NCBI RefSeq assembly: GCF_029360805.1 | Contig: NZ_JARKNC010000002.1 | Coordinates: forward strand, 227,978-291,977 | Origin: Daejeonella sp. JGW-45 | GTDB taxonomy: Bacteria > Bacteroidota > Bacteroidia > Sphingobacteriales > Sphingobacteriaceae | DNA: 64,000 bases | Direction: 5' to 3' | Part shown: positions 10,571-35,631 of the stretch, one piece after another | Layout of the letters: each line of letters starts with the position of its first letter | How positions within the stretch are numbered: position 1 is the first letter of the stretch | Program-made: the position numbers and the translations under genes | Notes under the pieces: model-generated | Database searches by the model: none | What the model saw: the letters and a program-made list of their open reading frames with translations, nothing else | Told to the model about the DNA's origin: nothing

Positions 10571-10626
10571 GAGGTGTTGGGGATTAGGTTTTAGGGATTA
10601 GGTGTTAGGTATCAGGTATCAGATGT
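10571..10626. repeat. degenerate heptanucleotide tandem array 1
   Basis: Eight consecutive 7-base units fit a (T/C)AGG(N)(N)T-like pattern, for example TAGGTTT, TAGGGAT, TAGGTGT, TAGGTAT, CAGGTAT. The array starts 14 bp upstream of the CBM9-like start codon, that is, in its leader on the minus strand. Confidence 0.75.
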
Positions 10627-10648
10627 CTTAATGAAATAATTCCGTGTC

Positions 10649-10711
10649 CGATTCCCTATTTCCTAAACCCTATTCCCTATTCCCTATTCCCTATTCCCTA
10701 TTCCCTAAACC
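10649..10711. repeat. heptanucleotide tandem array 2 (CTATTCC unit)
   Basis: Nine 7-base units, five of them identical CTATTCC in a row (10670-10704) and flanked by CTATTTC and CTAAACC variants. The array runs into the 3' end of the Kelch gene: on the minus strand the stop codon TAG (10700-10698) and the last residues FRE are encoded by repeat units. Gain or loss of a unit would shift the frame beyond the array, though the first TAG would still stop translation. Confidence 0.85.
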
Positions 10712-11699
10712 ACCCCTTCGGCACTTTCAAACTCCATACCTGGCTGTCGAGCAAATAGTTTGGTTCTGCAGCACCGCCGGCAACCCAGATCTTATCATCA
10801 AATACAAACGCCGAGTGCTCATGGCGCTTTGACCAGATGAGATCCGACTTTAATTCAGTCCAGTTCTTGCCATCCCTGGAATACCATACGTCTCCCAAGT
10901 TTCCGGATTCTTCCCAGCCACCCAACACCCACATTCTATCTCTATAGACTAGTGTCGAAAACCACATCCTCGGCTTCCAGGCAGCCGAGCCTGTCACTTG
11001 CGTCCAGTTAATGCCATCTTCAGAACACCATACGTCATTCATGGCCTTAGGGTGCGGGTTTCTGTTACCGCCGCCCAGTATCCAGATCTTATTGTCAAAC
11101 ACGAGTGCCTGTCCATGGGTTCTTTTCGACCAGGGCGCATTAGCCAGTTCAAGCTTCCATTCTTTGCCGTCGGCAGATGACCACACGTCATTGAATACAG
11201 TTGTGTCATTGTTCTTATAAAAGTCGCTGGTACCACCCATTATCCACATACGGTCTTTAAAAACGACGAAGCCGGGCGCTAATCTCGGGCTCCATCCCGC
11301 GTTAGGTGTCTCCAGCACCCAGTCCGTGCCATCTTTTGACGACCAAACCTGATTACTGGTATTGGTACCGGGGAGCTTACGTCCCCCCATCATCCACATT
11401 CTGTCTTTAAAAACCACTGCCGCAGGCAGATCGCTATGCTGCCAGGGTGCTGTTTCGATTACACGGGTCCAGTTCTTTCCATCAGGTGATTTCCAGACAT
11501 CCCTTGGGTTGGGTAACTGAGGCGTAAACCATCCGCCAAGAATCCACATCTGGCCTTTGAACACAAACTCACCCTGAGAATCCCGGGCCTGCCAGGCCGC
11601 TTCCTTACTTTCCTGCACCCAATTCAGGGTACCTTTCTGAGCATACGATTCTAAACTTAGTACAGTCAGGCACGCGATAATTAACACTGTAAATTTCAT
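10698..11699 (-). CDS. secreted Kelch-repeat protein
   Basis: I chose the ATG at 11699, which gives MKFTVLIIACLTVLSLESYAQ, a good signal peptide. A start at 11792 would put about 30 unlikely residues, encoded by a 7-bp repeat array, in front of it. The mature part is about six Kelch-type blades repeating a W(S/T)-K-D-G-x-x-W theme alternating with (V/K)-F-K-D-(R/K)-(M/I)-W-(I/V)-x-G-G. This folds as a beta-propeller, used for binding or as a scaffold; sialate mutarotases such as NanM also use it, but nothing here points to sialate. It is flanked by heptamer arrays on both sides and its stop codon is inside one. The role in the polysaccharide locus is unknown. Confidence 0.8.
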   Translation of the reverse strand: MKFTVLIIACLTVLSLESYAQKGTLNWVQESKEAAWQARDSQGEFVFKGQMWILGGWFTPQLPNPRDVWKSPDGKNWTRVIETAPWQHSDLPAAVVFKDRMWMMGGRKLPGTNTSNQVWSSKDGTDWVLETPNAGWSPRLAPGFVVFKDRMWIMGGTSDFYKNNDTTVFNDVWSSADGKEWKLELANAPWSKRTHGQALVFDNKIWILGGGNRNPHPKAMNDVWCSEDGINWTQVTGSAAWKPRMWFSTLVYRDRMWVLGGWEESGNLGDVWYSRDGKNWTELKSDLIWSKRHEHSAFVFDDKIWVAGGAAEPNYLLDSQVWSLKVPKGWFRE

Positions 11700-11717
11700 C
11701 TGTTTTATTTTTATTGA

Positions 11718-11766
11718 GCTGTGGGCTGTGAGCTGTGAGCTATCAGCTATCAGCTGTGAGCTAAAA
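11718..11766. repeat. heptanucleotide tandem array 3 (GCTGTGA/GCTATCA unit)
   Basis: Seven 7-base units: GCTGTGG, GCTGTGA twice, GCTATCA twice, GCTGTGA, GCTAAAA. It lies just upstream of the Kelch signal-peptide start on the minus strand and downstream of heparinase-like B, so it is in the intercistronic spacer. Confidence 0.85.
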
Positions 11767-11793
11767 AAATTCTTGTTATCACTTTCTAACACA

Positions 11794-14700
11794 TTATTCT
11801 ATTGCGATTTTCGATTGCCCGGCCGGCAGGCTCACTGTTAAAGTTTTTGAATCCTGATCGTACTTCCAGTTCTTTATACTAACTCCGTTCCGAACAACAG
11901 AAGATGGCTTTACCGGGCTTGCCATACTGAGTTCATAAGGGTTATCCGACTTTATTTCAAGGGCTGTACCCGAAGCCGAAAGTGTAATTGAAGCGTTCAC
12001 AGGAACAGTGAATCTGAATCCGGAGCCGTAGCCTTCAAAAGTCTTCCCTTCAAAATAGGCCTCTTTTAGCTGATCTCCTGAAACGACTGCGGTAAGCCTC
12101 GATGCATCGGTCTTAAAACCTTCAATGCCGGCGCCTGAACTTTGGTTCACCCTGAAAAATCCGTAATAATTAGTATTGCCTTCATTTAATACAGCACCGG
12201 TCCAGCCATTTGAATCAATTCGCGTAGGTTTTGGCCTTGCTGCATAATCACCACTGGCGGGCTTGCCTTCAGGTACCATTACAGCAAGAAAATCGGCCTC
12301 CTTCAGCTTCGCAGATGATAGGGCGATAAAACTTTCATCACGGTCGGAGTTACGAATTACGCCCGTTAATGGCTGGGGTGAAAGCACATCCAGGGTAAGG
12401 CGAGCTTTGGGGCGGTTTATACTCACTCGATTATCCGCATAAGAAATTGAACTCTTACCATTCGTATGTTCGGCATGAAAAAGCCAGTTGTAGGAATGTG
12501 CATCAGGGCTTTTCACCCGGTCAAACAAAAAAACTGGTCCATTTTTAATGCTGAGTAACGTGCGGGTATAACTTGACACCGCTCCCTTGTAAACGCTTGT
12601 CAGGTCGCTGGCCACCCCGCTGAATCTGTCGCCTGCAAACGAACTGGTAATTTCAGGCCAGGTCTTCAGAGATGCAATCCCATTATTAAAATCACCGGGT
12701 GCCTGACTTTCGGCATTCATATCCACCAGCATCACATTATGACCTATGGCCTGTGTATAATACCCCGGGAAGTAAAGGTTTGCATAATAGCTGCTGCTAT
12801 GTCCGGCATCACTTAAAAGCTCTTCTCCATTATGAGTCAGCAGTATGGTACCCTGATCATAATGATAATGATTTCCGTTAGGACCCGCTTTATAGATCAG
12901 GATACTACCTGAATCATCCCAGTTGGAACGAATTACCATGTGACCCTTGCCTTCAAAATGTTTAGATGTAGGCAGAGTCTCCCTGCTGACTGGCGTAATG
13001 CCTTCAGTATACCAGAGATAGGGTAATATACCTCCCCTGCCTGCCCCCGAATCCCATGAGGGCTTAACATATTTATACATGAAGGGATCTTTCATCTTAT
13101 AAACAAGCCATTGCATGGGTTGTTGAGTGAAATTATAGGTAGGTGAAACATCACCCAGATCCTGATATTTTCCCCGGTTATTCTGTGTTACATACAATGG
13201 GTATTGATAAAACTCTTTTAAATAGGTAGTTGAAGTATAATCTATCCCATAGTTTTTTTCAAGAGAAAACAGGAATTCAACAAACTCCCGGTAGCCCATC
13301 TCCTGATACGTGTATGGCTCATTATAACTTCCTTCAGGCAGCATCGTACGGTCTATAAACTGCTTCGATTTTGCGAGGATGCCTGAGAGATAAGGTTCAA
13401 GACCCGGTAATTCCGGATCATCATTGGCAATTGCCATTGCAGCAAGCCCCACCCCGGAAAGTATTACCCCAATGTGATTCGAATTGCTGGTTGGCATACG
13501 ATTTAGTTCAACCATATCGCGATAAAAAGGCTTAATCGAATTATCCATTATTCCTTTGCGGATAGTTTTGCGCTCCTGCTCTGATAATATTTGAAAAAGA
13601 AGATCATATCCCAAAGCTGCGGCCATTGCGGCAGGAGCTCCGGGGTAATAGGTATGGTTTCCATTTGCTTCCATCCATGGGTGATTCCAGGATGGCATGG
13701 TACAAAGTTTATAGAGTGCTGCTTTAGCTTTTTCTCCAGCCTCCGTATTGCCGGTCAGGTAAAATTGCCAGGCTTCGCTGTTAATAATCCTCGCAAGGGT
13801 ATTCTGGGTGTTATACCAGCCGCCCATACTTGCACTCGCATAAGGCCCGCCGGTCACAGATTCAGGTGCTTCAGAAAAAGGCTGAGCCAGGGTATTGATA
13901 TCAAGGGTCGACGGCTTGTAGTTATTTATAAAATTCTCTAAGAGCTTTTTTGCAGGTGCAGGTTCAGCCCCGGCTCTCCTGGCAGCAAGCTCAGCGCCAG
14001 TAAAAAAGATCCTGGGATGGCCTTTTGCACCCGGAAGCTGGATGATAAAGCTCAGATCCGATGTAAAACCTTGTGCCCCTTCGGCCGTAAATCTTGCTTT
14101 CCATTGTCCACGGGGATCTCCGGCTTTCACCGTATGCACCGCATTATTAGACCAGATACCATCGCCGGCCCGGAAATCGCCGTGACTTCCATCATCATAA
14201 AATCTGACTTTCTTTATCCTGGTCAGCCCATCCGGACCAATAAGATCAGCGCTTACTGCAACAGGTTTTGCCCCCTGTTCCGGACTAACGCTCAATGATA
14301 TGGTCTGTCCGGTAGTATAATGACTGTGTATTACTGACTGACCGAATTGCTCGAACCAGGTCGATCCTGGCTGGGTTGAAATAAACTGTCTGGCTCTCTC
14401 TCCATTTAGCCGGAACTCATCCATCAGCATGGAATAGCTTGGCAGATGGTTCACCACGGGATAAAAGGCTTTCATAACCACAACCTGGAGATGCTCCCCT
14501 GCACTCAAAGACTTACCCGAAGACTTGAAATCCTCTATCGGCAGGTCTACTTCTACCCAGGTATTTGCTTTTGGTGAACTGATCGTATGGGTATACAATG
14601 TCCCCTGGAAAGTCCCGAGAGATACCTCCAGGCTGGCAGGTTTCCGGTCACTCATAAAAAAGAAAGCAAACTTCAGCCGTGTGGATTGATTGGCATACAT

Positions 14701-14985: not shown

Positions 14986-15035
14986 AATCTGTTTTTGTTG
15001 TCGTCAACCTAAAGCTATCGGTTGTCTGTTGGCCC

Positions 15036-16517: not shown

Positions 16518-16539
16518 CAGAGCATAATTGTCTTTTAAT

Positions 16540-16638: not shown

Positions 16639-16672
16639 TGATACTTCTCCTGACCGGGAAATCCCATTTATA

Positions 16673-18019: not shown

Positions 18020-18074
18020 GTTATTCTAGTTAAATTATATGGTCTGTTATTATTTATGTTTTAATTGTTCGTTT

Positions 18075-20369
18075 TCAGGGATTGTACATAACCTGCAGTT
18101 CACTGACCGGGCCAAGTATTCCCCTGCTATTTTTTGTACGGACCTTTATGCTGTTCAGCCCGCTCTGAAGTTCCCAATTCCATAGATTCTCCTTTCTGCT
18201 TATCCATTCACCATCATTGCTTGCAACAAGGAAACTGTCGAAACCTCCGGGAGTAAAATTGTCAACTTCTACTTTCAGAGTTCCGGCTTTTTGGGTTTCA
18301 GTAAGATAGACTTTCGCCTGGTTAAGCGGTTGATAAAAATCTGATGCACGATTCGTATATCGTTGATATTCATCCCGTTTTGGAAAAACGTTATCGTACC
18401 AGTTTAAAAAGCCGTCCCATCCCCACATGGTAAAACCGGTACGGACTGGCACTGGCAAAGGGTTCGAGAGAAAGTCATTCCGCGGTATGATCCGGAAGTG
18501 TCCCATAATTTCCAGAAGATGGTTGCCGCCGCCACTTTGTATAGGAAAGGGGTTATTACCCTGACGCTGTCCGACTTTTAATCTGGCGACGAGCTCCTCT
18601 CCTATTTCAGGTGCAAATGGGCGTTGCCAGGTTTCAACCCGCGGCATCTGTTCAGCAAGAAGATTATGGATTTCCAGCAGATTAAATGGTACGCCGGTCT
18701 TCGGATCATAGTAATAATAATCACGGGTGGAATCCATATATATCCATTTATTCAGCTGATTGGACCATACTTCTGTTACTTCATGGCCGCTTTCACCTTC
18801 GCTATGAATGTTTATATGCCGTGCCTGATATCCCATTGAAAGAAGCGCACCTATTAAAGCCTGATTGGGGTAAAGACACATTCCCACCATACGTCTTCCC
18901 TTGAAAACCGGGCCGTTCAGCTGGGGCATTCCGCTCCCCTCTGCAATCACCGGAGTTACAGTGACGTCATTCCAGTTCCATGAATATCCTTCGCTCGTGA
19001 GAGGCACGCGGTACGACCAGTTTAGAAGGCGCATCATTACTTCGAATTCGTTCCTTGCTCCCTTCACAATCTGGTCGAGCTTATGATCCGTTCTGTACTT
19101 TGCAAGGTCCAGGTGGTTTAAATTCTCATATGAGAATGGGTACGAAGGTTCTATAATTTTTCCGTTATTGATCACGCGGGCCTCAATACCGGCATTTGCA
19201 TTTGTGGAAAGGTCTTCCCATCTGATCTTTATCCTGAGTCCTCTGATTACCGGAGTAGCTAAAGGATCAGTCGTTGAAAGTTCTGCCTTCCATTGTATGT
19301 AACGCTTATCGGAAAGAGAATATTCATGTCCCTTTTCGAGCGGCTGCCACTTTGTCCATGATTCATCTCCGATAAACGGGCTGGAGCCAAAACGAACATA
19401 GGATTTTAAACTGGTTTGGGCAGGCACATCGAAGTCGGGCCAAAAAGTAGCTGCAATCTTCCCCGAATTCCGTTTAAGCGGATCATCCTCGTTCACGAGA
19501 TCCATTAAGGGAGAGAGGTACTCTCCGGAGGGGAGAAAACGATCAAGACTAAGTCGTATGGAGTACTCGCCATCTATCAGATTCATGGCGCCAAGCCTTG
19601 AGTCACTCCAGGATCCGCCGTTGTTAAGGCTTTTCATCGAACGGTTCGGACTTGTACGCGTTAAAGATCCCCGTTTAAACTCGTTTATATGTGCAATTAG
19701 TACCCGCCACGAGGTTGAATCAGACTCCGTCCACATAAGGATCTCATTATTCCCCTTTCTTAACTTTTCATGCGGAAGATCGATGTAATACCATCGGTCG
19801 AGACCAGCCATGTCAATGTATTGACGCGCATGAGGATATGCAATTACAGAAGCCTGCCTGATAAGCTTTTCCCCATTCAGGGACAAATGAAGGGGCTCTC
19901 TATTACCTTGAACCTCCATTCCTTTAAATACCAGTCTGGCGGAAGCAACAGCAGGATTATCAACTACAAGAATTTTCTTAATAACAATCCCTTTTTTTAA
20001 ATCCTCAACCCATTCTACCGGGCCCTTATCGTAGTATTTATACCCCTGGGGAAGACCAGCAGCAGGTGCGTCATCTTCAATAAGTTCCATATCCTGCAGC
20101 CTGATGATCCCCCTGGCCTGGTCAAACTTCAGTTTGATCAATCGCGCATCCTTCTCAATACCGGCAGCATTTAAATCAGCTTCCTTAAATCTGAGGCTTG
20201 AAATGTCTTTCGGGTCCTCCGGTCTTACCATACCGGCAAGTTCCATGAACCCTGACCTTCGTTCTTCTTTAACCTGCACAGATTGTGAAAACACCGCAAA
20301 ACAGTCAATTACTAACAATGCCAGAAGAGATAACGATTTTCTCATTTTTTCTTGATTAGAGTTAAACAC
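18075..20369 (-). CDS. secreted transglutaminase-like domain protein B
   Basis: The 764-residue protein is a divergent paralogue of the one at 894-3161. A hydrophobic signal lies at about residues 9-28 (start MFNSNQEKMRKSLSLLALL; the internal Met at residue 9 is an alternative start). The triad of the transglutaminase-like core is visible: Cys498 in GMCLYPN, His529 in SGHEVTEVW and Asp546 in YMDSTRD, with exactly the same spacing as in copy A. Both copies share a conserved region after the core (PFNLLEIHNL and a W-G-W-D-G motif near residue 650). This is the first gene after the terminator behind SusD, so it may have its own promoter in 20370-20548. Probably an exported amidase or peptidase; substrate unknown. 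Confidence 0.8.
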   Translation of the reverse strand: MFNSNQEKMRKSLSLLALLVIDCFAVFSQSVQVKEERRSGFMELAGMVRPEDPKDISSLRFKEADLNAAGIEKDARLIKLKFDQARGIIRLQDMELIEDDAPAAGLPQGYKYYDKGPVEWVEDLKKGIVIKKILVVDNPAVASARLVFKGMEVQGNREPLHLSLNGEKLIRQASVIAYPHARQYIDMAGLDRWYYIDLPHEKLRKGNNEILMWTESDSTSWRVLIAHINEFKRGSLTRTSPNRSMKSLNNGGSWSDSRLGAMNLIDGEYSIRLSLDRFLPSGEYLSPLMDLVNEDDPLKRNSGKIAATFWPDFDVPAQTSLKSYVRFGSSPFIGDESWTKWQPLEKGHEYSLSDKRYIQWKAELSTTDPLATPVIRGLRIKIRWEDLSTNANAGIEARVINNGKIIEPSYPFSYENLNHLDLAKYRTDHKLDQIVKGARNEFEVMMRLLNWSYRVPLTSEGYSWNWNDVTVTPVIAEGSGMPQLNGPVFKGRRMVGMCLYPNQALIGALLSMGYQARHINIHSEGESGHEVTEVWSNQLNKWIYMDSTRDYYYYDPKTGVPFNLLEIHNLLAEQMPRVETWQRPFAPEIGEELVARLKVGQRQGNNPFPIQSGGGNHLLEIMGHFRIIPRNDFLSNPLPVPVRTGFTMWGWDGFLNWYDNVFPKRDEYQRYTNRASDFYQPLNQAKVYLTETQKAGTLKVEVDNFTPGGFDSFLVASNDGEWISRKENLWNWELQSGLNSIKVRTKNSRGILGPVSELQVMYNP

Positions 20370-22298: not shown

Positions 22299-25200
22299 CT
22301 AAAAATCAACCTTCAGGTTTAACCCAAAAGTTCTTTCAGTAGGCTGAACATAGGTTTGAAAACCCGCTGATGCAGTACCGGCTCCCGAAAGAATTTCCGG
22401 ATCCCAGTTACCTGTCTTCTTCAGGAAGAACAAGTTTCTTCCAACTAAGGATAACTTAACGCCGGAAATAAACCCGATTTTGTTCAGCATCGATTTAGGA
22501 AACGTAAAACCAAGTGTGGCCTCTCTGACCCGGGTATTGGTGGCACTTGTAATAAATGCTTCACCGATCGGCGCATTCCTTCCCCCAATTAATCTCCAAA
22601 AAGCCTGTGACGTTATTGCTGTAGTATTAGGAGCGCCGCTGGCAAGAACTCCTGTCTCGTTTGGAAACAGATTCTCTCCGAACACCAATCCGCCATCTCT
22701 TCCGGCAAGCGTTTCCCTGGTAATCCCTTCTCCATAAAGAAGTCCATCGGTTATGGAAACCATACTGCCACCCTGACGGTGCTCTATCAGGAAACCAAAA
22801 TCGAAGTTCTTATATGAAAAATTATTGGTGATGGCACCCATCCAGTCCGGGTTAAAATTGGCAGCTAACACGGTTCTTCCCGCAGTAAGGGTTGGAATAC
22901 CGTTTGCTCCGACAATTACCTGCCCTTGCGCATTTCTTGCCCATCCTCTTGTATAAATATTTCCGAATTCCTGTCCCTGAGCAACAACGAAATCAGACAT
23001 ATACGAATCCCCGCCAACGATAATGCGCGGACGATCATCAGATATCTTATTAACCCAGTTTCTGTTCTTTCCGAAATTACTGCTGATATCCCAGGTTAAG
23101 CCATTTGCATTCTGGACTGGTGTGGCCGATAAAACAACCTCAATACCTGTATTCTGAACATCTCCTCCATTAGTGAAGAATGAGGCAGCACCAGAACCTG
23201 ATGGCAGGCTGATTGTGAATAGCTGGTCGAAGGTATTTGTTTTGTAGGCGGTGATATCAAGTCCTAAACGACTATTAAACAAGCGGGTATCGAGCCCGAT
23301 CTCATATCCTTCAGTGGTTTCAGGTTTCAGGTTTGCATTAGGCAAAGTAGCCCCGAGAGTTATGAATCCAAAGTTTCCTCCCGTTCCTGCAAATGTAGCA
23401 GAGCGGCTTAATTGATAAGGTGAAGCACCGCTTCCTACCTTTGCATACGATGCTCTGAGTTTGGAATATGAAAACACGTCCGGAAGACCAGGGATCAAAT
23501 CCGTAAGGATCGTGGAAATACCCACCGACGGATAAAAATATGACCGGCTGTTTGCAGGAAGGGTTGAACTCCAGTCATTCCGGCCTGTAACATCCAGGTA
23601 AAGGAGATTCTTCCATCCAAAATTAGCAGAAAAATAAACTGATTGTAATTCTTCCCTGGTACTTGGATTAAATGCCCCTTGTGTAAGAGGGGTATTACCG
23701 AATGAGAAGAAGTTAGGAATGGTCAATCCTTGCTGGGTACTTGCACTGATGCTGCCTGAACCATTATACTTTCTCAGCGTACCGCCGGCCAGCGCTGAGA
23801 CATTCAGGTTCTTTGTAATGTCATCATTAAAAGACAGGATAGCATCATGGTTCCAAACCTGGCCAGGTCCGGAGATGCTCGCGCTGTAACTGCCGAAATT
23901 GTCCTGGCCCCCGCCGTACGAATCAATCCATGCTTTTCTCTCATTTGTGCCTGATCCGCCATCAAATGATGAACGCGCCATAAGTTTAAGATTAGGCGTA
24001 AAATCAATAGTCGCTGAAGCTAATGCGATAATACGATCAGTTGTTGCATAATTAACAACCCGGTTCATAATCCAGAAAGGGTTCCTTCCAATTGTAGAAC
24101 CCGGATTCCAGTAATTTTGCTTGTTATTACCAGCCGCGTCGGTATATTCAAATTGTCTGAGATCCCCGATCGCAATGTTGCGGGGCATCCGATAGATATT
24201 CATAAACGGATTATTAGCCGCATTATCACCTGTACCGTTTTGATTATCTATTTCGTTCCTGATATAGTTTAGCTTGGTATCCAGAGAAAGCCATGATTTC
24301 AGCTTGCTGGTCACTCTGACCGTTGCGTTATCCCTCCTTAATTCATTAGTTTCGAGCATTCCTTTTGCGTCTTCCCTGGTATAAGAAAATGCCGTTTGTG
24401 TAGTCGCTGAGCCTACGGTAGCGTTAACGTTATGAGTTAAATAAGTAGAGTTCCGGAGAGCATCCCTATAGTTATTTGACTGCGGTAAAAATGCATACTG
24501 GGTTCCTGCTAAACCAGGAGCTGCCGACCAGTGAGGAACCATTTGACCGGTCATTTTCGGGCCCCATGATTCTTCAGACGTAGGGTTATAAACTCCGGAA
24601 ACTCCCTGTCCGTACTCATTCTGCGGCTCAAAATAAAGCAGCGGCCTTCCTGTCTGGAATGTTTCATTCACACTGATTTGAACCTGCCCTTCTTTTCCTT
24701 TCTTGGTTTCGATAATAATAACACCATTCTGAGCAGCACTGCCATATAAAGCCGCGGCATTCGGACCTTTCAGCACGTTGATAGATTCAATGTTATCCGG
24801 ACTGAAGTTCGATATTGCCGTGGTCATTGGAACTCCGTCAACAACATAAAGGGGGCCACTGCCGCCGGATATGGAACGGTTTCCTCTCAGAACAACCCGG
24901 GCTGTGCCGCCCAAACCTGTACCGGCAGTTTCAATGGACATACCGGCCACTTTGCCCTGTAAGGCATTCACAACATTCAGTGTACGTGTTTCTGTGAGTT
25001 CTTCTGCGTTAACACCTTGTGTGGCATAGGTCAGCGATTTTGATTCCCGTTTTATACCTAAGGCAGTCACCACTACTTCATTTAAAGAAGTGGAAGACTG
25101 ATCTAAAGTGACGTTGATCATTTCCTGGTTGTTTACCGCAACCTCTTTCGTGTTATAGCCAATATAGGTAAATACCAGGGTCGCATTTTCAGGAACACTT

Positions 25201-25691
25201 AAAGAAAATCTTCCATCCGCATCAGATGATGCTCCAATCTCAGTCCCTTTTACCTTAACGCTAACTCCGGGAAGCGTCTCCCCTTTTGCATCCTTTATCT
25301 GACCTCTGACAACAATGTCCAGTAACCTGGTAACATCATTTTCTGTTAATCGATGAACGTCTAAGCCCTTTTGACTATTAACTATCATTATTCTGTTATC
25401 CACCTGTTTAAAATCAAGCGAGGTATTCGATAACAATTCTTTCAACACATTTGCAACAGACATCTTTTCTGCAGTCATCTCCAGTTTATTGACATCCTTT
25501 ACATCGGCATAACGATACATAAATTGAAATGGACTTTGCTTTTCAATTTTTTGAAATGCCTTTATTAAGGACTCGCTTTTAAGCTCAAGTTTTATTTCAA
25601 CTTTATCGATTGCCTGGCTCTTTACCGGAGGGGCAGAGAACAATTGAATCGAGGTTGTTAAAACAATAAAAAATGCTAATCGGAGTTGCAT
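22299..25691 (-). CDS. SusC/RagA-family TonB-dependent outer-membrane transporter with STN domain
   Basis: I chose the ATG at 25691 (MQLRLAFFIVLTTSIQLFSA, a signal peptide); an upstream in-frame ATG at 25784 would add 31 poor residues. Of 1130 residues, 40-105 form the STN (secretin/TonB N-terminal) domain, which marks SusC proteins that signal through FecR. Residues 127-195 are the carboxypeptidase-like repeat (DAKGETLPGVSVKVKGT), 205-220 carry EVVVTALGIKRE, and 225-345 are the plug (VLRGNRSISGGSGPLYVVDGVPM region). The remainder is the 22-strand barrel ending in VDF. It imports oligosaccharides using TonB energy, capped by SusD. The FecR and sigma-factor genes lie directly upstream, giving a full trans-envelope signalling set. 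Confidence 0.93.
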   Translation of the reverse strand: MQLRLAFFIVLTTSIQLFSAPPVKSQAIDKVEIKLELKSESLIKAFQKIEKQSPFQFMYRYADVKDVNKLEMTAEKMSVANVLKELLSNTSLDFKQVDNRIMIVNSQKGLDVHRLTENDVTRLLDIVVRGQIKDAKGETLPGVSVKVKGTEIGASSDADGRFSLSVPENATLVFTYIGYNTKEVAVNNQEMINVTLDQSSTSLNEVVVTALGIKRESKSLTYATQGVNAEELTETRTLNVVNALQGKVAGMSIETAGTGLGGTARVVLRGNRSISGGSGPLYVVDGVPMTTAISNFSPDNIESINVLKGPNAAALYGSAAQNGVIIIETKKGKEGQVQISVNETFQTGRPLLYFEPQNEYGQGVSGVYNPTSEESWGPKMTGQMVPHWSAAPGLAGTQYAFLPQSNNYRDALRNSTYLTHNVNATVGSATTQTAFSYTREDAKGMLETNELRRDNATVRVTSKLKSWLSLDTKLNYIRNEIDNQNGTGDNAANNPFMNIYRMPRNIAIGDLRQFEYTDAAGNNKQNYWNPGSTIGRNPFWIMNRVVNYATTDRIIALASATIDFTPNLKLMARSSFDGGSGTNERKAWIDSYGGGQDNFGSYSASISGPGQVWNHDAILSFNDDITKNLNVSALAGGTLRKYNGSGSISASTQQGLTIPNFFSFGNTPLTQGAFNPSTREELQSVYFSANFGWKNLLYLDVTGRNDWSSTLPANSRSYFYPSVGISTILTDLIPGLPDVFSYSKLRASYAKVGSGASPYQLSRSATFAGTGGNFGFITLGATLPNANLKPETTEGYEIGLDTRLFNSRLGLDITAYKTNTFDQLFTISLPSGSGAASFFTNGGDVQNTGIEVVLSATPVQNANGLTWDISSNFGKNRNWVNKISDDRPRIIVGGDSYMSDFVVAQGQEFGNIYTRGWARNAQGQVIVGANGIPTLTAGRTVLAANFNPDWMGAITNNFSYKNFDFGFLIEHRQGGSMVSITDGLLYGEGITRETLAGRDGGLVFGENLFPNETGVLASGAPNTTAITSQAFWRLIGGRNAPIGEAFITSATNTRVREATLGFTFPKSMLNKIGFISGVKLSLVGRNLFFLKKTGNWDPEILSGAGTASAGFQTYVQPTERTFGLNLKVDF

Positions 25692-25783
25692 AATTATTAA
25701 ATATATTTTATCAAAAAATAGCCTTAGATGATAGGCAAACAAGTTTTTTTGCTGGCGTTCAGCAGGAAGAGTAAAAAAAATCA

Positions 25784-25926
25784 TAATTTTACATCGTTTT
25801 AAAAGTAATCAAAATGTCTGCGATTAATAGCAGACAGGATTTAAAACACAAATTGATGTGCGATGGCAGTCGGACAACAATTCTCCCCTCTGAATGCTCT
25901 CGAAAGAAATTCAGAGGGTTTTTTTT
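25784..25926 (+). ncRNA. candidate antisense small RNA opposite the susC leader
   Basis: All genes here are on the minus strand, yet the plus strand carries a textbook terminator at 25886-25926: a 10-bp stem (CCCTCTGAAT with ATTCAGAGGG) followed by eight T. On the minus strand no T run follows the hairpin. Upstream on the plus strand are a TAATTTTA box at 25784-25791 resembling the Bacteroidota -7 element, and a small hairpin (GTCTGC with GCAGAC). A plus-strand RNA of about 120-130 bases would be antisense to the susC 5' leader. Cis-antisense RNAs of this kind are known for Bacteroides polysaccharide loci. The 5' end is a guess. Confidence 0.4.
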
Positions 25927-27626: not shown

Positions 27627-27785
27627 CAGGTTAATTTAGTAAGGTGTTGCCGATGCAACGGGCATATTCTAATACAGGTTAAAGCAAAAATCTCAAAGTC
27701 TAATATAAAAAAAAACAACGTTATTCAAATTCCACTACCTAAAAAATAAATAGAATTCCCATCTGGTTCCATTGTCGATAAAGTA

Positions 27786-28670
27786 TTTATCACATGCGAC
27801 CACCTTCAGGGTCGGGTAACGCATTAAATAATTTTCTATAAACATTCGACTCCTTCGGAGTCAGCGAACTGCCTTAAGATATTGCATTAACAAAAGGACA
27901 TCAAATTCCTTAAATATCAAATTCCTTGAATAACGACATTGCCCGAAAGTGGTCACATGTTTATAGATGAAATCATTATAATCCTTTTTTCCGACCCCCG
28001 AAGGCGGTCACGTGTTTATAGATGAAATCATTACAATCCTTTTTCCGACCCCGAAGGTGGTCACATGTTTATAGATGAAATCATTATAATCCTTTTACCC
28101 GACCCCGAAGGTGGTCGTATCTGCCGGATTGAATGATAAGGTGTTTATCACATGCGACCCCGACCGAACGGTGTTCTCCCGGCGGGCTCCTTCGGGGGTC
28201 GGGAAAACGCACTAAATAATTTTCTATAAACATTCGACTCCTTCGGAGTCAGCGAACTGCCTTAAGATATTGCATTTAACAAAAGGACATCAAATTCCTT
28301 AAATATCAAATTCCTTAAATAATGACATTGCCCGAAGGTGGTCATACGTGCCTGACAATTTACATGCGATCGTCTTTGGGCAATGTCATTAAGTTGTCTA
28401 CCCACTTATGTCAGCGAAAAATTGGAATCTCTGTAAATATGTTCTATGCTTTGCATTGATGCATTGCCAACTTAAAAAAAAAAACGTCCCTCTGTTAAAA
28501 TACAAGCAGGTTTGACCCCGAAGGTGCCCGCCCGGATGAACGCCGTTCGGACGGGGTCACATGTTTATAGATGAAATCATTATAATCCATTTTTCCGACC
28601 CCGAAGGTGGTCGCATGTTTATAGATGAAATCATCATTATCCTTTTTTCCGACCCCGAAGGTGGTCGCAT
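27786..28670. repeat. hairpin-repeat cluster 1 (GACCCCGAAGG...GGTC + ATGTTTATAG family)
   Basis: The 1106-bp gap 27627-28732 contains no convincing gene and is mostly repeats. Units of about 54 bp, each a GACCCCGAAGGTGGTC-like hairpin plus CATGTTTATAGATGAAATCATTA, repeat with hairpin ends starting at 27951, 28006, 28059 and 28113, and again at 28555, 28609 and 28663. A larger block (27786-27950) recurs diverged at 28144-28343. A 45-bp composite hairpin occurs forward at 28514-28558 and inverted at 28156-28200. A long imperfect hairpin spans 28321-28390 (13-bp perfect ends). Base changes in the stems tend to be paired. No transposase is nearby. Confidence 0.85.
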
Positions 28671-28675
28671 GTTTT

Positions 28676-28703
28676 CAGCTTTCAGTTTTCAGTTTTCAGT
28701 TTT
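28676..28703. repeat. heptanucleotide tandem array 4 (CAGTTTT unit)
   Basis: Four 7-base units, CAGCTTT then CAGTTTT three times, lie downstream of the FAD-oxidoreductase stop codon, between it and repeat cluster 1. Confidence 0.75.
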
Positions 28704-28705
28704 CC

Positions 28706-28723
28706 ACCCGATAGCTATCGGGT
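28706..28723. other. 18-bp perfect palindrome
   Basis: ACCCGATAGCTATCGGGT is a perfect palindrome 10 bp beyond the stop of the FAD-oxidoreductase gene. A sister copy with a paired change, ATCCGATAGCTATCGGAT, is at 30568-30585. Possible protein-binding site or remnant of a dispersed palindromic repeat. Confidence 0.6.
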
Positions 28724-28732
28724 CTCACCCCC

Positions 28733-30334
28733 CTAGTTCCCCAAAATCTGCTCATCCTTCAGCAGCTGCTCCTTCAGCCTCTCATAACTGATATCCTGAA
28801 CCGCCTTATTTTCATCGATAGCATGAACTGCTGCCGTTGCCGCGCTCTGTCCCAGGATCATGAATACCGGCTCCATCCGTATCGATCCAAATGCGATGTG
28901 CGATGAGGACAAGGATACCGGAACCAGTAAGTTGCTGCATTCGGCCTTTTTAGGAGTAATTGACTTATATGAAATCGGGTACGGCTTAAAACCGCCGATC
29001 TCGACATTACCCTCGTTCTTTACCATCCCGTTCACTACGATACGCTGAATGTTATGGCTGTCCATGGTATAGGCCGCCATGCCTACCGGGTCTTCTATAA
29101 CCCTTTTACCGGTAACATTGTGCTCGGTCATTACATACTCCCCGATCATCCGTCTTCCCTCGCGCACATAGAGCTGCGGGGTGAAGTTTTTATTGCCCAC
29201 GTACTCATCCTTCGGGTAACCCCATTTAGCGACAAAGTTGCGAAGGGTATCCGGTACCCGCTTATCGCTCACAAAGAAATACAGCAGGCCCTTCGTATAG
29301 GTCAGGTGATCATTAAAGATCCTCCGGCGCTCTTCAAAGCTAGCCTCAGGCCAGCTGAAGTTCATCCCGATCATGTCGGTCGAGAAGCCTCCCCGGTTAT
29401 TGATATCGGTTTTTCGCCCGGGCATGTTGCTCCATATAAAGTAATCGTTGATCTTTCTCATGTTAGGCTGGGCATCAAACAAGCGTACCAGCAGCTCGTA
29501 TTTAGAAGCGTCGTACCCCTTTGGCTTTTTGATCGGGATTCTGTTCGCGGGATCATCCGTCAGACAGATCCTGAAATTATAAGCCTGCACCTTTTTATCG
29601 CCCTCGCCCTGAGGCCGGGCCGTATCAGTACTTATGCCCCAGACCAAACCGCTGGCGGGATCTCCGGGAATCTTATAAGGGCTCACATTGTCCGGGAACT
29701 GGTGGAACCCGGAACGTTTATGGTATTCAGGCAGCTGAAAGCCGCTGTGATTCTCGTTGTAAACACGGTTATCTTCGCGGCCTACGGTGTAAGAAACCCC
29801 TGCAAGCGCCAGGAGATCGCCTTCATAGGTGCAATCCAGAAACACTTTAGCGCTGATGATCTGGCTTTGCTTTGCCGGGCCATAGGTATTTACCAGCTTA
29901 ACCTGGGTGATCTTCGCGCCATCCTTGACCACTTCAGAGATCCGCCGGTTATAGATCACCGGCATATTGCCCTCCTTAATATAACCGGCAAACAGCTTCG
30001 AAGCCGCACTGGGTTCAAACACCCAGGATTCGTCCTCACCGTAAAACTTGCCCAGCTGCCGGTAGAACTGCCGGGAAAGGCCGCCAATTACCTGCTTGTT
30101 GCCGATGTCGGTTTGCCCCAGCCCCCCGGATGAGAGTCCGCCTATATGGCTGTCGGGAGCAATGATGACCACCGTTTTACCCATTTTCCGGGCAGTGTGA
30201 GCAGCAATCACTCCTGCAGAGGTGCCCCCGTAAATGGCAATGTCGTAGGTGAGGTTATTTTCTTTAGGCTGGCTGCTGGCAGGAGAGATGAAGCAGCAGG
30301 TTATTAGCGCGATTAAAATGGTTCTCTTCATCAT
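28733..30334 (-). CDS. secreted FAD-dependent oxidoreductase
   Basis: The 533-residue protein has a signal peptide (about 1-21, ending ASS-Q) followed at once by a Rossmann FAD-binding motif (YDIAIYGGTSAGVIAA, with the glycines at 36, 37 and 41) and the family's GGLSSGGLGQTD segment. This matches the FAD_oxidored group, exported flavoproteins common in Bacteroidota and Planctomycetota polysaccharide loci. Some oxidise or dehydrogenate sugars, but the substrate is unknown here. Two ATGs stand side by side at the start (30334 and 30331). It is isolated between repeat regions and transcribed toward repeat cluster 1, so it may or may not belong to the polysaccharide locus. Confidence 0.85.
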   Translation of the reverse strand: MMKRTILIALITCCFISPASSQPKENNLTYDIAIYGGTSAGVIAAHTARKMGKTVVIIAPDSHIGGLSSGGLGQTDIGNKQVIGGLSRQFYRQLGKFYGEDESWVFEPSAASKLFAGYIKEGNMPVIYNRRISEVVKDGAKITQVKLVNTYGPAKQSQIISAKVFLDCTYEGDLLALAGVSYTVGREDNRVYNENHSGFQLPEYHKRSGFHQFPDNVSPYKIPGDPASGLVWGISTDTARPQGEGDKKVQAYNFRICLTDDPANRIPIKKPKGYDASKYELLVRLFDAQPNMRKINDYFIWSNMPGRKTDINNRGGFSTDMIGMNFSWPEASFEERRRIFNDHLTYTKGLLYFFVSDKRVPDTLRNFVAKWGYPKDEYVGNKNFTPQLYVREGRRMIGEYVMTEHNVTGKRVIEDPVGMAAYTMDSHNIQRIVVNGMVKNEGNVEIGGFKPYPISYKSITPKKAECSNLLVPVSLSSSHIAFGSIRMEPVFMILGQSAATAAVHAIDENKAVQDISYERLKEQLLKDEQILGN

Positions 30335-30396
30335 TTTGTTTTCAGGAGTCTAGGTTGTTTGTGCAGAGGAAGATAGGAAATATTTTTAATTAGTTG

Positions 30397-30998: not shown

Positions 30999-31127
30999 TT
31001 AGATTTTAGTACCGCCGGCACGAGCCGGGCATTCCATCACATTATTCCCCCCTTTCATCACAATTTAATGCTAATTTTCCCTCAAGCCTTTATTCTTGTT
31101 CCTTCGTAGAGAAACACTGTATTGAAT

Positions 31128-32054
31128 ATGGAATATCCCAAAATAAGCTTGTCCATCCGTAATGTTTCAAAGACCTATTCCAATGGAATAAAAGCATTAA
31201 CGGATATCTCCCTTCAGATCCCGGCAGGCATGTACGGACTGCTGGGCCCGAACGGCGCGGGCAAATCTACACTCATGCGCACCCTGGCCACCTTGCAGGA
31301 CCCGGATGAAGGGCAGATCTTCCTGGGTGATGTGGATGTAGTGAACCAGAAAGATGAACTGCGCAAGACCCTGGGCTACCTTCCTCAGGATTTCGGACTG
31401 ATCAGAAATGTAAGTGCGGAGAAGCTGCTCGATCATTTTGCCATCCTCAAAGGGATCACCCAAAGCGCATCGCGCAGGGAAGTGGTGGAACACCTCCTCA
31501 AACAGACCAACCTCTGGGATAAGCGGAAGCAGCAACTGAACGGCTTTTCCGGCGGCATGAAACAGCGTTTCGGTGTGGCTGTGGCGCTGCTCGGCGATCC
31601 TAAACTGCTTATTGTCGATGAGCCTACCGCGGGCCTTGACCCGGCCGAGCGCGTCCGCTTTCTGAACCTGCTGAGCGAGCTGGGTGAAAACAGCGTGGTG
31701 ATCCTGTCGACGCACATCGTGGAGGACGTTTCCGAACTGTGCACCCGCATGGCCATTATTGATAAAGGCAGGATCCTGCTGGAAGCCGAACCGCTGCAGG
31801 CTGTCCGCGAATTAAGAGGCAAGGTTTGGCGCCGCCTGATCGATAAAAGCCAGCTTAAAGAGCTCGAACAGAATCACCAGGTCATCTCCACCAAACTCCT
31901 GAGCGGACAGACGGTGGTTCATGCCTTCAGTGATACCGCCCCCGGACCCGGCTTTGAAGCAGTAGGGCCCGACCTGGAGGATGTTTATTTTAGCACCATG
32001 TCGGGGTACTACCCTTCACCGGGCAGCCGTGCAGGGAAGGAGCAGCAGCCATGA
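31128..32054 (+). CDS. ABC transporter ATP-binding protein
   Basis: I chose the ATG at 31128; a TTG at 31122 would add two residues. Numbered from 31122, the Walker A motif GPNGAGKST is at 42-50, the signature FSGGMKQR at 142-149, Walker B LLIVDEP at 162-168, and a switch His in LSTHIVED follows. The C-terminal part is typical of ABC-2 exporter ATPases. It overlaps the following permease/peptidase gene by 4 bp (ATGA), so the two form one transporter of unknown substrate. G+C content and codon choice are clearly higher here than in the polysaccharide locus. Confidence 0.93.
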   Translation: MEYPKISLSIRNVSKTYSNGIKALTDISLQIPAGMYGLLGPNGAGKSTLMRTLATLQDPDEGQIFLGDVDVVNQKDELRKTLGYLPQDFGLIRNVSAEKLLDHFAILKGITQSASRREVVEHLLKQTNLWDKRKQQLNGFSGGMKQRFGVAVALLGDPKLLIVDEPTAGLDPAERVRFLNLLSELGENSVVILSTHIVEDVSELCTRMAIIDKGRILLEAEPLQAVRELRGKVWRRLIDKSQLKELEQNHQVISTKLLSGQTVVHAFSDTAPGPGFEAVGPDLEDVYFSTMSGYYPSPGSRAGKEQQP

Positions 32055-35000
32055 TCTTTCGTGAGATCTTCCGCTTCGAGATCTGGTACCAGTTAAGGCG
32101 GCCCTCCACCTGGATATTTTTCCTTGCCCTTACCGGCCTTAACTTCATGGTAATTGGAGACCTGGCAGATTCGGTGCGTTCCGTGGAGAACCAGTTGTTC
32201 ACCGCTCCCATCATTATCGCCCAGTTTTCCGCTTACTCTGGCAATATCGGCCTCCTGCTGATCGCCGCCCTGACTGGCGATGGTGCGATGCGCGATATTA
32301 ATGCACGCATCGATCCCCTGATCTACACCACCCCCATTTCAAAACCCGCGTATTTAGGCGGCCGCTTTCTCGGCACGGCATGCCTCTCCGCGGGACTGAT
32401 CATTGTCGCCGGATGGCTCAGCCTATGGCTGGCCGCCTGCACCAAAACGATCGACGCGGAAAGCATCGGTCCGTTTATTCCATCCGCATACCTCCAGGCT
32501 GCGCTCTTTATCGCCCTGCCGAATGTGATAATAGCCACCGCGGCGATGTATACCAGCGCGCTGCTTAGCAGGCAGGCCATGGCTGCCTACCTGGGCGCCC
32601 TGCTGATCGTAATTTTGAGCACCTTCAGCATGGAACTCTCAGGAAATAACCGGGAGGTAGCGCGACTGATCGACCCATCGGGGATCGTTATACTGGAAGC
32701 GTTTGGCAAGACCCTCACGCCACAGAATATGAATACAGAAGAGCTGTCAGTCGGCACGCCGCTGTTCGGTAACAGGATACTCTGGCTGGCGATATCCCTG
32801 ATGACAGCGGTTTTCACATTCCGGCAATTCCGGTTTTCAAACAGGCGCGGCAGAAGGAGAAATAAAGCCGCAGCATTGGCCGATGAAGACCTGCGCGGTA
32901 AAATAAAGCCGCTGGCAGCGATGTCAGAGCCCGTTCGCAGCCTTGATCTTCGGGCCAGGATCTACCAGGTGCGCGCACTGTCCTGGAGTTTTTTTATGGA
33001 ATTCCTGAAAAGCCCCATGGTACTGATCCTCCCGGTGATCGGCATTTACGCCTTTATCCTCATCCCAAACATTTCCGCCGGTCCGATGATGGTCCCTATC
33101 CTGCCCACCACCGGGCGCATGAACTTTTTCCTGAATCATTCAGCGCTGCAGATCATCCTGGTGATCCCGGTATCCTTTCTCGCCGGACAACTGGTTTGGC
33201 GGGAGCGTGATTCACGGAGCAGCGAAATCTCGGATGCCTTGCCGGTTCCCAACGCGGTCATCATTCTGAGCAAGTATGCAGGGCTGATCCTGATCCTGCT
33301 CAGCATCCAGCTGACCTTACTGCTTGCGGCGATGGCACTGCAGGCATCGCAGGGATATTACGAATTCGAAATCGCAGCCTATCTCAGGGAGCTCTTTGTG
33401 TTCCAGCTGGCGGAGCACCTGACCATCGCCGCAGCGATAGTCTTCATCCATGTGCTGATCAACCAGAAATATGTTGCGCACCTGGTGGTCTTTATCTTTT
33501 ATCTGTATACCGCCATTCCCCGGCGCTTCGGCATCGAACATAAACTCCTGATCTTTAATTCCGACAGCGGCTTAGCCCATTCTGCCTTCTATGACCAGAG
33601 CCCTTTCCTCCCGGGATGGATACTCTTTAAACTCTACTGGATCGCATGGGGCATCCTCCTGCTCATCGTGGCAACACATCTTTTGCCGAGGGGCCGCGAG
33701 CTGAACTATTCCCGCCGGCTATCGCAGTCATGGACCGGCATGAGAACATCGCGGCTCAGCCGGCTTGCCCTGGTCCTGCTGATCAGCACGGGAGGCCTCC
33801 TGTTTTATAATACCAATATCCTGCACGACTATGTGACGCGCAAAGAAAAGATCGCCGCGCAGGCCAGCTATGAGCGTCAATACGCGCAGTATAAGCAAGT
33901 ACCCCAGCCCTACCACACCGCCACCAAACTGGATATTGAGATCTATCCGCGGAAGCAGGAAGCCGTCATCTCGGGCCATTACCTGCTAAAAAATGGCAGC
34001 AAGAACGAAATGGATTCGATCCACATTGTACCCGCACCGGAAGTAAGCACCAGCGGCATCCGTTTCAACAGAACAGCCCGCCTCCTGCTGAACGATAAAA
34101 AGCAGGGCTACCTGATCTACCTGCTCGAAGAACCGCTGCAGCCGGGCGAGCTGCTGCAGATGAATTTTACGGTACGTTATACGCAGTCAGGCTTTTCTAA
34201 TGAGGGGATTAAGACCGATGTGCTCCCTAACGGCAGCTATTTCGGCAGCTCGGACTGGCTGCCGGCGATCGGCTACCAGGAAAGCCGGGAGATCACTGAT
34301 GCCGCTGCGCGGGAAGACCATGGACTGCCAAAGCTGCAGCCGGCATTAAGCATCGCGCAGGATCCCGCTGCCCGGTACGACCGAAGTGGTATGGAGAAGA
34401 TTAGCTTTGAGGCAACGATCGGCACCGCCGCCGGGCAGCTCGCCCTGGCACCGGGCTCGCTGAAACGCACCTGGTCTGAAAATGACCGGCGATACGCGCA
34501 TTATGTAAGCGAGAAGCCCATCCGGAACGCCTATCATATTTACTCCGCAGATTACCGGGTCCGGAATTCCAGCTGGCAGTCTAAGGAACTGAATATTTTC
34601 CATCATCCTTCCAGCACACTGAATCTCGGCCAGATCGGGAAGGCAATGAGTGCTTCCCTGGACTACTATTCCAGGAACTTTAGTCCCTATGAGTTTAGCG
34701 AGCTGCGGATGGTTGAGTACGCCGATCCCGGAACAGGGGGCATATCGCTGCCCGGGTCCATTGGCTACTCCACGAATTTCGCCTTGCTGAACACCGCGAA
34801 CGACGTGCGGGGCTTCGACCTCCCGTTTGCCGTGACAGCGCATGAGATCGCCCATCAATGGTGGCCTCACCAACTGGGTGCCGCCCGGGTGGCAGGCAGG
34901 GCGCTCATCACCGAAAGCCTGGCCTGGTACAGCGCCCTGGGAGTGGTGGAACAAACCTATGGATCTCAGCATCTCCGGAACCTGCTGGATGCCATGAGAA

Positions 35001-35602
35001 CGGCATACCTGGCGCCAAGGAGCAGGGCCGGCGTGCCGCTTCTCGAGTCGGCCGACAGCTTTGACGCCTACCGCCGGGGACCCTTTGCCATGTATGCCCT
35101 AAGGGAATATATCGGTGAAGAACAAATGAACCTGGCGCTGAGAAAGCTGCTGTACAATTTCCGGTCGGGCGAGCCGCCCTACGCCACTTCACAGGATTTA
35201 TATTCAGAAGTCCGGGCAGTGACTCCCGACTCGGTCCAATACCTGTTGAAAGACCTTTTTGAAACCAACACCTTCTGGGACCTGGCGACCAGGCGTGCCG
35301 CTGCGCGGAAGACCAACAAGGGGAACTGGCAGCTTACCCTGGACGTGACGGCAAAAAAGTCGAAAGTTGATCCGGCCGGGGCCGAAACCGCCCTGCCCAT
35401 GAACGACCTGATCGAGATTGGCGTCTTCGCACGCGGCAAAGAGGGTCGCCGAACACCCCTGTACCTGAAAAAGCACCGTATCCGTACCGGCGCAAACCGC
35501 ATTATCATAAACGTAGCCGCCCGGCCCGCTGAAGCCGGCATCGATCCGAGGCATTTGCTGGTGGATACGGATATGGGGGATAATGTTGGGGAGGTGAAGT
35601 GA
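32051..35602 (+). CDS. fused ABC-2-type permease / M1-family aminopeptidase
   Basis: The 1183-residue protein has a membrane half (about 1-590) with two blocks of spans resembling duplicated ABC-2 permeases, then an exported-side M1 peptidase half (about 610-1070). The zinc site is HEIAH (His931, Glu932, His935) with the third ligand Glu955 in ITESLAWYSALG, one residue further away than the usual 18-residue gap; this seems normal for this fused subfamily. With the overlapping ATPase it makes an ABC system with a peptidase attached. Such fusions are known in Bacteroidota, but their substrate is not established to my knowledge. A heptamer array starts 2 bp after the stop codon. Confidence 0.9.
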   Translation: MIFREIFRFEIWYQLRRPSTWIFFLALTGLNFMVIGDLADSVRSVENQLFTAPIIIAQFSAYSGNIGLLLIAALTGDGAMRDINARIDPLIYTTPISKPAYLGGRFLGTACLSAGLIIVAGWLSLWLAACTKTIDAESIGPFIPSAYLQAALFIALPNVIIATAAMYTSALLSRQAMAAYLGALLIVILSTFSMELSGNNREVARLIDPSGIVILEAFGKTLTPQNMNTEELSVGTPLFGNRILWLAISLMTAVFTFRQFRFSNRRGRRRNKAAALADEDLRGKIKPLAAMSEPVRSLDLRARIYQVRALSWSFFMEFLKSPMVLILPVIGIYAFILIPNISAGPMMVPILPTTGRMNFFLNHSALQIILVIPVSFLAGQLVWRERDSRSSEISDALPVPNAVIILSKYAGLILILLSIQLTLLLAAMALQASQGYYEFEIAAYLRELFVFQLAEHLTIAAAIVFIHVLINQKYVAHLVVFIFYLYTAIPRRFGIEHKLLIFNSDSGLAHSAFYDQSPFLPGWILFKLYWIAWGILLLIVATHLLPRGRELNYSRRLSQSWTGMRTSRLSRLALVLLISTGGLLFYNTNILHDYVTRKEKIAAQASYERQYAQYKQVPQPYHTATKLDIEIYPRKQEAVISGHYLLKNGSKNEMDSIHIVPAPEVSTSGIRFNRTARLLLNDKKQGYLIYLLEEPLQPGELLQMNFTVRYTQSGFSNEGIKTDVLPNGSYFGSSDWLPAIGYQESREITDAAAREDHGLPKLQPALSIAQDPAARYDRSGMEKISFEATIGTAAGQLALAPGSLKRTWSENDRRYAHYVSEKPIRNAYHIYSADYRVRNSSWQSKELNIFHHPSSTLNLGQIGKAMSASLDYYSRNFSPYEFSELRMVEYADPGTGGISLPGSIGYSTNFALLNTANDVRGFDLPFAVTAHEIAHQWWPHQLGAARVAGRALITESLAWYSALGVVEQTYGSQHLRNLLDAMRTAYLAPRSRAGVPLLESADSFDAYRRGPFAMYALREYIGEEQMNLALRKLLYNFRSGEPPYATSQDLYSEVRAVTPDSVQYLLKDLFETNTFWDLATRRAAARKTNKGNWQLTLDVTAKKSKVDPAGAETALPMNDLIEIGVFARGKEGRRTPLYLKKHRIRTGANRIIINVAARPAEAGIDPRHLLVDTDMGDNVGEVK

Positions 35603-35603
35603 G

Positions 35604-35631
35604 GGTATGAGGTATGAGGTATGAGGCTGGG
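35604..35631. repeat. heptanucleotide tandem array 5 (GGTATGA unit)
   Basis: Three GGTATGA units and a degenerate fourth (GGCTGGG) begin 2 bp after the stop codon of the permease/peptidase gene. Confidence 0.75.

Follow-up and report, generated by a model that had tools for sequence, protein, structure and literature searches.

Period-7 tandem arrays beside Daejeonella genes: kept positions, changing units

The stretch of DNA analyzed here, 64,000 nucleotides (nt) from the Sphingobacteriaceae member Daejeonella sp. JGW-45 (contig NZ_JARKNC010000002.1, positions 227,978 to 291,977; hereafter the window), contains five arrays of 7-nt tandem repeats close to gene boundaries. One of its proteins has its best named relative in Sphingobacterium sp. 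JB170, at 71%. At three loci compared across congeners, the position of such an array is kept while its units differ. Two loci, the atpD-atpC spacer and mnmE, were picked for their recognizable genes and the third because it is the window's own, so that the three are not a random sample. The original prediction, drawn from the letters of the window, held that a period shared without a shared unit points to a mechanism that makes heptamer repeats. Tandem Repeats Finder recovers all five arrays within a few bases of where they had been placed. The wider survey reveals structure beyond that prediction, in the form of inverted partners and a polarity of the arrays relative to genes.

A genome-wide class of period-7 arrays

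The window and 40 further stretches of 20 kb, together 864 kb or 21% of the 4.1-Mb genome (10 contigs), were scanned for exact-period segments at a score of 12. The lack of an excess of period 7 had been named beforehand as what would refute the prediction, and the scan gave the opposite result: 50 arrays of period 7, with 0–2 at any other single period between 4 and 13; periods 14 and 21 also score, as multiples of 7. One Markov-1 shuffle of the sample gave no array of any period from 4 to 24. Two congeners sampled at 400 kb each behave similarly (genomes are given G numbers, G000 being that of the window): G018 has 59 period-7 arrays against 0–7 for other periods, and G012 has 24 against 0–2. 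In 80 named loci, mostly from Bacteroidota (580 kb), 10 period-7 arrays were found against 0–1 for every other period from 4 to 13, and these lie in Dyadobacter, Terrimonas and metagenome-assembled genomes labeled Bacteroidales and Chitinophagaceae. Because the excess is nearly exclusive to 7, a process producing heptamers is supported. Among the sampled genomes of the genus, G018 is the densest with 148 arrays per Mb, followed by G012 (60), the window's genome (58), G009 (38) and G003 (33); no arrays occur in the 60–80 kb samples of G001, G004, G013 and G015.

The arrays are mostly intergenic. Genes were called as longest open reading frames (ORFs), which makes start positions rough. On these calls, 40 of the 50 arrays in the window's genome fall within gaps between called ORFs; the other ten include three outside any called gene at the ends of stretches and one, array 3 of the window, inside an over-long ORF call. 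Gaps of 25–400 nt between codirectional genes bear an array in 27 of 258 cases. When nine genome samples are pooled, 119 of 138 arrays occupy or adjoin a called intergenic gap. Of the 119, 56 lie within 10 nt of a gene end, compared with 22.2 +/- 3.3 under random placement. The description of the five window arrays as sitting at gene ends thus holds statistically for the class.

The units are many, and 28 distinct consensus sequences occur among the 50 arrays. To this extent the view that each array has a different unit is borne out, but the units are not unrelated: identical ones are shared by 3.5% of locus pairs in the window's genome, 9.7% in G012 and 2.5% in G018, against 0.2% for base-shuffled units. 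The units at different loci are a related set, not one unit. Identity also extends between genomes, at 2.5% of pairs for G000 and G018, 0.8% for G000 and G012, and 0.1% for G012 and G018. One frequent unit, AGGTATC, searched as three copies with at most 2 mismatches, has 34 matches across the window's genome and dominates in G012 (213 overlapping matches). The reversed pattern used as a control has none in the window's genome, but some in a few relatives, for example G014 and G023.

Conserved positions with changing units

The fullest comparison comes from the atpD-atpC spacer. A match to atpC was found in 19 of 20 genus genomes, and all 19 were used. In 18 of them identity at period 7 reaches 0.43 or more within the spacer, against means of 0.19–0.28 over six other periods, and in 15 the spacer has a hairpin z of at least 3.8; the spacer of G013 has neither period nor hairpin. 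One genome has the unit AGGTATC and its closest neighbor on the tree TTAGGCA; TTGAGTA or GAGATAT is found elsewhere in the genus. Close species also differ here by whole heptamers: ATACTCA is present five times in G006 and in G019, and four times in G017. Despite the change of unit, the two arms within a spacer continue to match each other. Across 28 spacers, nine of which were chosen for showing the period, own arms score 0.637 and arms taken from different genomes 0.514 (0 of 5000 permutations), and in 8 of 28 the best-matching arm is the spacer's own. The C-rich arm of the atp spacers lies beside the start codon. The genome tree behind these comparisons was built from AtpD and AtpC residues with a midpoint root; it has strong support on 3 of 16 inner branches, and the fork that defines a 14-genome group is supported at 91/98.

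In mnmE, a heptamer-derived insert lies within the gene itself. The site is readable in 13 of the 20 genus genomes (loci L199–L211), and the insert is in frame, adding 20–79 residues to the GTPase region of MnmE. It is present in all nine readable members of the 14-genome group and absent from all four readable genomes outside it, a distribution whose simplest reading would be one gain on the tree. The four insert-free genes are too diverged for a target-site duplication to be read. Units within the insert include AGTTATC (TAACTGA on the opposite strand), AAGTCTG and AGGTATC/AAGTATC; TCAGTTA, likewise TAACTGA on the opposite strand, occurs in mnmE of G001, G002, G003 and G007. The sequence of the insert changes between close species, a tolerance that is unusual in a conserved protein.

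The third locus is the spacer of window arrays 1 and 2, upstream of a gene with a CBM9 domain. Eleven of 20 loci were compared, and G003 and G017 have a different upstream gene. G009 has a heptamer pair and G019 has arrays on both sides, with units that differ from those of the window. Heptamer-derived reading frames stand at the gene start in G006 and G007, and G010 has a short, degenerate, one-sided array. No array is present at this locus in G002, G008 and G016. A FAD-dependent oxidoreductase gene beside array 4 of the window has orthologues in six congeners that are 51–53% identical, too distant for a comparison of the locus.

Inverted pairing and polarity

Many arrays face an inverted counterpart. 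In a search with a profile built from each of the 50 arrays (within 160 nt, score >13), an inverted partner of similar unit turned up for 17, and the direct, complement and reverse controls gave 5, 3 and 1. A pair can be counted twice, once from either arm, and the actual number of pairs is below 17. Among 15 pairs of neighboring arrays, 11 are inverted-like and three direct-like. The clearest pair is that of the atpD-atpC spacer, in which three copies of AGGTATC are followed by a 3-base center and GATACCT repeats. Best hairpins score at least 24 in 32 of 82 array-bearing gaps. The G-richer arm is the 5′ one in 28 of these 32, with one C-richer and three ties. The period is missing from at least one arm in 10 of the 32, the single C-first hairpin among them, and the 22 with the period in both arms comprise 20 that are G-first and two ties, regardless of gene arrangement.

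The same bias appears when single arrays are oriented against genes. The G-rich strand points away from the adjacent gene in 59 of 64 arrays within 30 nt of it and in 24 of 44 farther off, a count that leaves out 11 arrays with balanced G and C. In array-free gaps, 3′ ends lack this skew (103 versus 104; 108 versus 111) and 5′ ends have it to a moderate degree (366 versus 199). Background composition is thereby ruled out as the cause of polarity at 3′ ends and is partly possible at 5′ ends. Of 51 arrays near 3′ ends, 27 touch or overlap the gene end. Even so, the case for stop codons as seeds is weak: a stop triplet occurs in 30 of the 51 units on the coding strand and, on the opposite strand, in 20.

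Three Dyadobacter species carry GC-rich arrays (GACCGCC ... GGCGGTC) about 400–500 nt past the same FAD gene (L054, 5040–5143; L056, 5036–5105; L061, 5086–5229). By eye, the C-rich arm comes first in all three, and the polarity is therefore not universal.

How the arrays may arise

The explanation we prefer, and to which we give an even chance, is that these are heptamer minisatellites, often quasi-palindromic, made and kept by a process acting at the level of DNA, with the hairpin mainly a by-product. Slippage or tandem duplication would add and remove copies, 7 nt at a time, in stretches beside start and stop codons, perhaps because the replication machinery realigns by 7 nt. Copies would be homogenized, so that the unit drifts as a whole, and altered units would occasionally reach the opposite arm, for example through short fold-back (template-switch) copying; the two arms would then often have one unit in common, while their variants need not follow one order. 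Growth would be limited by coding sequence, the MnmE loop being one tolerated exception. Growth in 7-nt steps with homogenization would account for copy-number steps and whole-array drift, and its limitation by coding sequence for arrays that fill gaps up to gene boundaries. The heptamer-making mechanism first proposed gains from the near-exclusive period and from the whole-heptamer differences in the atpD-atpC spacer, which slippage predicts. Slippage acting array by array does not by itself account for inverted pairing, for polarity, or for kept positions with changing units.

Several observations weigh against the DNA-level explanation. Two thirds of the arrays have no strong partner, and arms match poorly by eye in mnmE of G000, G001 and G018; those of the CBM9 locus in G019 have unlike units, again by eye. 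The period is not wholly exclusive, since partly overlapping congener and family loci hold eight period-8 arrays beside 50 period-7 arrays. The array of the atpD-atpC spacer could be useful in other genera: a search of the family covered 61 genomes, 57 with a match, and of 26 new loci 10 were unparseable, four had spacers of at most 23 nt and 12 were analyzed, nine of which (five genera) have the period. Local slippage alone leaves unexplained both the polarity rule and a sharing of units between loci that is far above chance. The fold-back step is itself something we infer, and variant units follow a mirrored order between arms in none of 14 cases (p<=0.05; mean p 0.82). On this result, mirror copying of whole arms was rejected; wholesale copying from arm to arm is unsupported, and any fold-back copying must be short and piecemeal.

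A more far-reaching form of the same idea is a tentative possibility. The arrays would be a self-renewing form of DNA: next to genes, some process would write or repair sequence 7 nt at a time and maintain the likeness of facing arrays, such that position, period and polarity are inherited and sequence is not. Its range would take in this genus, five or more further genera of the family and, as Xanthomonas has the same layout and polarity in published work, perhaps other phyla.

Alternatively, the pairs could be mRNA stem-loops under selection for operon spacing, mRNA stability or the tuning of translation, for which the heptamer process supplies raw material. This unlikely alternative would fit the atpD-atpC spacer, where the position of the array is kept across the genus and in five other genera, where own arms stay more complementary than those of different genomes despite the change of unit, and where the C-rich arm adjoins the start codon. 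However, mismatches that RNA would tolerate are not enriched. On the transcribed strand, G-T mismatches number 11 against 19 A-C in 31 spacers, 13 against 24 in 18 codirectional hairpins, and 9 against 12 in the 14 codirectional hairpins with the period in both arms, counts that are non-independent since units repeat. In convergent and divergent gaps, where the choice of strand is arbitrary, the counts are 13 against 7 and 9 against 0. That G-U does not outnumber A-C on the transcribed strand argues against selection on mRNA hairpins, which was rejected as a cause on the codirectional gaps, and points to a process at the DNA level. Heptamer pairs also occur between convergent and divergent genes and within mnmE, and an Rfam scan of the window found no family at the arrays and a single tRNA (42220–42293). 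In four other members of the family the atpD-atpC spacer, as parsed, is merely 1–23 nt long, which indicates that it is dispensable.

Dispersed mobile elements to which the arrays belong, or a dedicated enzyme that writes them and dictates their unit in trans, are a distinctly unlikely source. Such a source would fit the within-genome identity of units, at 2.5–9.7% of locus pairs against 0.2% after shuffling, and the dominance of one unit in G012, as well as the reading of the mnmE insert as one change on the tree. A spacer core, CTGGGCGGATARCASAGCGTTTAGA, also recurs near ACGT-type arrays, with 10 matches in G000, seven in G018 and one in G006. Sharing between G000 and G018 equals the value within G018, however, so that it is not genome-specific, and units change in place at orthologous positions. 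The number of Y1 (REP-type) transposases does not follow array density: PF01797 has no match in G018, the densest genome sampled, and one in G000. REP/RAYT mobility is ruled out by these counts.

Binding of a factor with a 7-nt footprint that selects the period (for example a cold-shock-type protein, as discussed for TAACTGA in the available parts of PMC4679880) would suit the strict period, the polarity and unit positions that by eye are more variable than others, but it is very unlikely, since 28 distinct units and their replacement between species are ill-suited to one recognition motif and so few codirectional gaps bear an array. G-quadruplexes were rejected as a general cause because a run of GGG or CCC occurs in only 4 of the 50 arrays, array 2 of the window among them.

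The arrays of the window and neighboring repeats

All five window arrays are delimited here as found with Tandem Repeats Finder. Array 1 (10572–10622, + strand; 10572–10619 in the program's output) consists of degenerate AGGTGTT/AGGTATC/AGGGATT heptamers that are G-rich on the + strand, and lies 15 nt upstream of the ATG of the CBM9-domain gene (9828–10556, −). Array 2 (10651–10707, −), made of ATTCCCT heptamers that read AGGGAAT on the − strand, overlaps the final bases of a Kelch-domain gene (10698–11792, −). Array 3 (11715–11762, +) has AGCTGTG/AGCTATC heptamers and is located 15 nt upstream of the likely ATG of the Kelch-domain gene (11699). Array 4 (28671–28704, −), of GTTTTCA heptamers, is 28 nt downstream of the stop codon of the FAD-dependent oxidoreductase gene (28733–30334, −). 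Array 5 (35604–35626, +) begins 1 nt past the stop codon of a gene with ABC-2 and M1 peptidase domains (32051–35602, +) and contains GGTATGA heptamers followed by CTGGGCGGA. Read on the G-rich strand, the units of arrays 1 to 5 are AGGTGTT/AGGTATC, AGGGAAT, AGCTGTG/AGCTATC, AGTTTTC and AGGTATG. Two weaker period-7 arrays are also present, one with 2.7 copies of GGTTTCA (23316–23334, +) within an ORF at 22299–25784 (−) and one at 62547–62561.

Arrays 1 and 2 are likely the two arms of one inverted pair, loosely matched, to judge from their sequences: inverted similarity is 0.64 and direct similarity 0.44, with a partner score of 13.7, and a similarity of 0.6 is also attained by 18% of random array pairs. 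A search for ungapped inverted repeats gave none at these arrays. They form the only pair within the window, the inverted-partner search having returned nothing for arrays 3, 4 and 5. Arrays 1, 2 and 4 conform to the polarity rule, array 4 narrowly. Array 5 is scored as an exception owing to an ORF at 35614 and conforms relative to the gene that it follows; array 3 was left unscored.

Other repeats adjoin these arrays. The palindrome CCCGATAGCTATCGGG lies next to array 4 at 28707–28722, and it or a near copy follows an array of TTTCAGT-type heptamers at two loci, this one and L050 (about 19685–19700). Two clusters of 49–54 bp repeats, at 27942–28674 and 56536–57051, are 28 kb apart; the repeats are built on CCGACCCCGAAGG(T)GGTCGCATGTTTATAG, a short palindrome with a constant tail, and form a class distinct from the heptamers. 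Array 4 begins right where one of these clusters stops. CTGGGCGGATARCASAGCGTTTAGA stands between or beside ACGT-type arrays at L043 (7126–7202) and L049 (4884–5090), and its first bases, CTGGGCGGA, are those found after array 5, at 35627.

Comparison with known heptamer repeats

The original prediction had likened the arrays to the short tandem repeats of filamentous cyanobacteria. From the parts of the published reports that were available, closer parallels are the GGGAATC repeats of Xanthomonas and Nostoc and the TAACTGA repeats of Beggiatoaceae. As described in the accessible text of PMC4692102, the Xanthomonas and Nostoc heptamers, GGGAATC and GGGGA(C/T)T, are mostly intergenic and near ORFs; two Xanthomonas genomes have 70 and 75 cases of two repeat sites that converge; and positions of GGGAATC repeats are common to two species, with variation in length and sequence there. 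The Daejeonella arrays resemble the GGGAATC type in the period of 7, in convergent inverted pairs and in a polarity of the G-rich strand relative to ORFs. They differ in having many units with few G-tracts, whereas the part of that report available describes one consensus unit per genome with tracts capable of forming quadruplexes, and in that here the unit differs at orthologous places (PMC4692102).

TAACTGA occurs as direct repeats in marine Beggiatoaceae, cyanobacteria and five Bacteroidetes, most of them beside start codons, according to the available sections of PMC4679880, which also state that other heptamers accompany it in some genomes and that differences between two close cyanobacterial strains are mostly 7-nt steps. 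A further paper, PMC4853749, mentions the heptamer and, in the part available, counts it in one genome. Both systems consist of heptamer repeats, and the unit is seen, on the opposite strand, in mnmE of the four congeners named above; TAACTGA is not a unit of the window arrays. Unlike the arrays studied here, in which pairs are common and units diverse, those of the TAACTGA report, in its accessible portion, have a single unit and one inverted case in the main genome studied.

Heptanucleotides are the commonest unit of long simple sequence repeats in many bacterial genomes (Mrazek and co-workers 2007, as cited in the available parts of PMC4679880 and PMC4692102), and polymerase contact length has been proposed as the cause of the heptamer step (as cited in the same parts of those reports). 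As cited there, the 2007 work was a genome-wide census, and the citations say nothing of inverted pairing, polarity or replacement of units. Template switching at quasipalindromes, known from the accessible portions of PMC8604942 and PMC7202029, is comparable as a DNA-level route to homogenization of inverted-repeat arms, but the accessible text has no tie to a 7-nt period, and its signature in the order of units between arms is absent here.

The class itself, its pairing and its polarity are thus already known in another phylum, from Xanthomonas. What appears to be new is that units are replaced in place, which makes the arrays independent of any one motif; a literature search that had most subscription papers outside its reach found no report of unit replacement at kept positions or of the class in Sphingobacteriaceae. 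Both published reports, in the parts available, treat heptamers as single motifs and discuss protein binding, quadruplexes and horizontal spread (PMC4679880, PMC4692102). Close species of this genus retain the layout but carry different motifs, even in a conserved gene, and such motif-specific explanations are therefore unlikely to be general. The question shifts to why 7-nt additions occur beside genes in bacteria and what sets their polarity, and the spread of densities among congeners, from zero in the 60–80 kb samples to 148 arrays per Mb, makes the cause testable by comparison across the genus.

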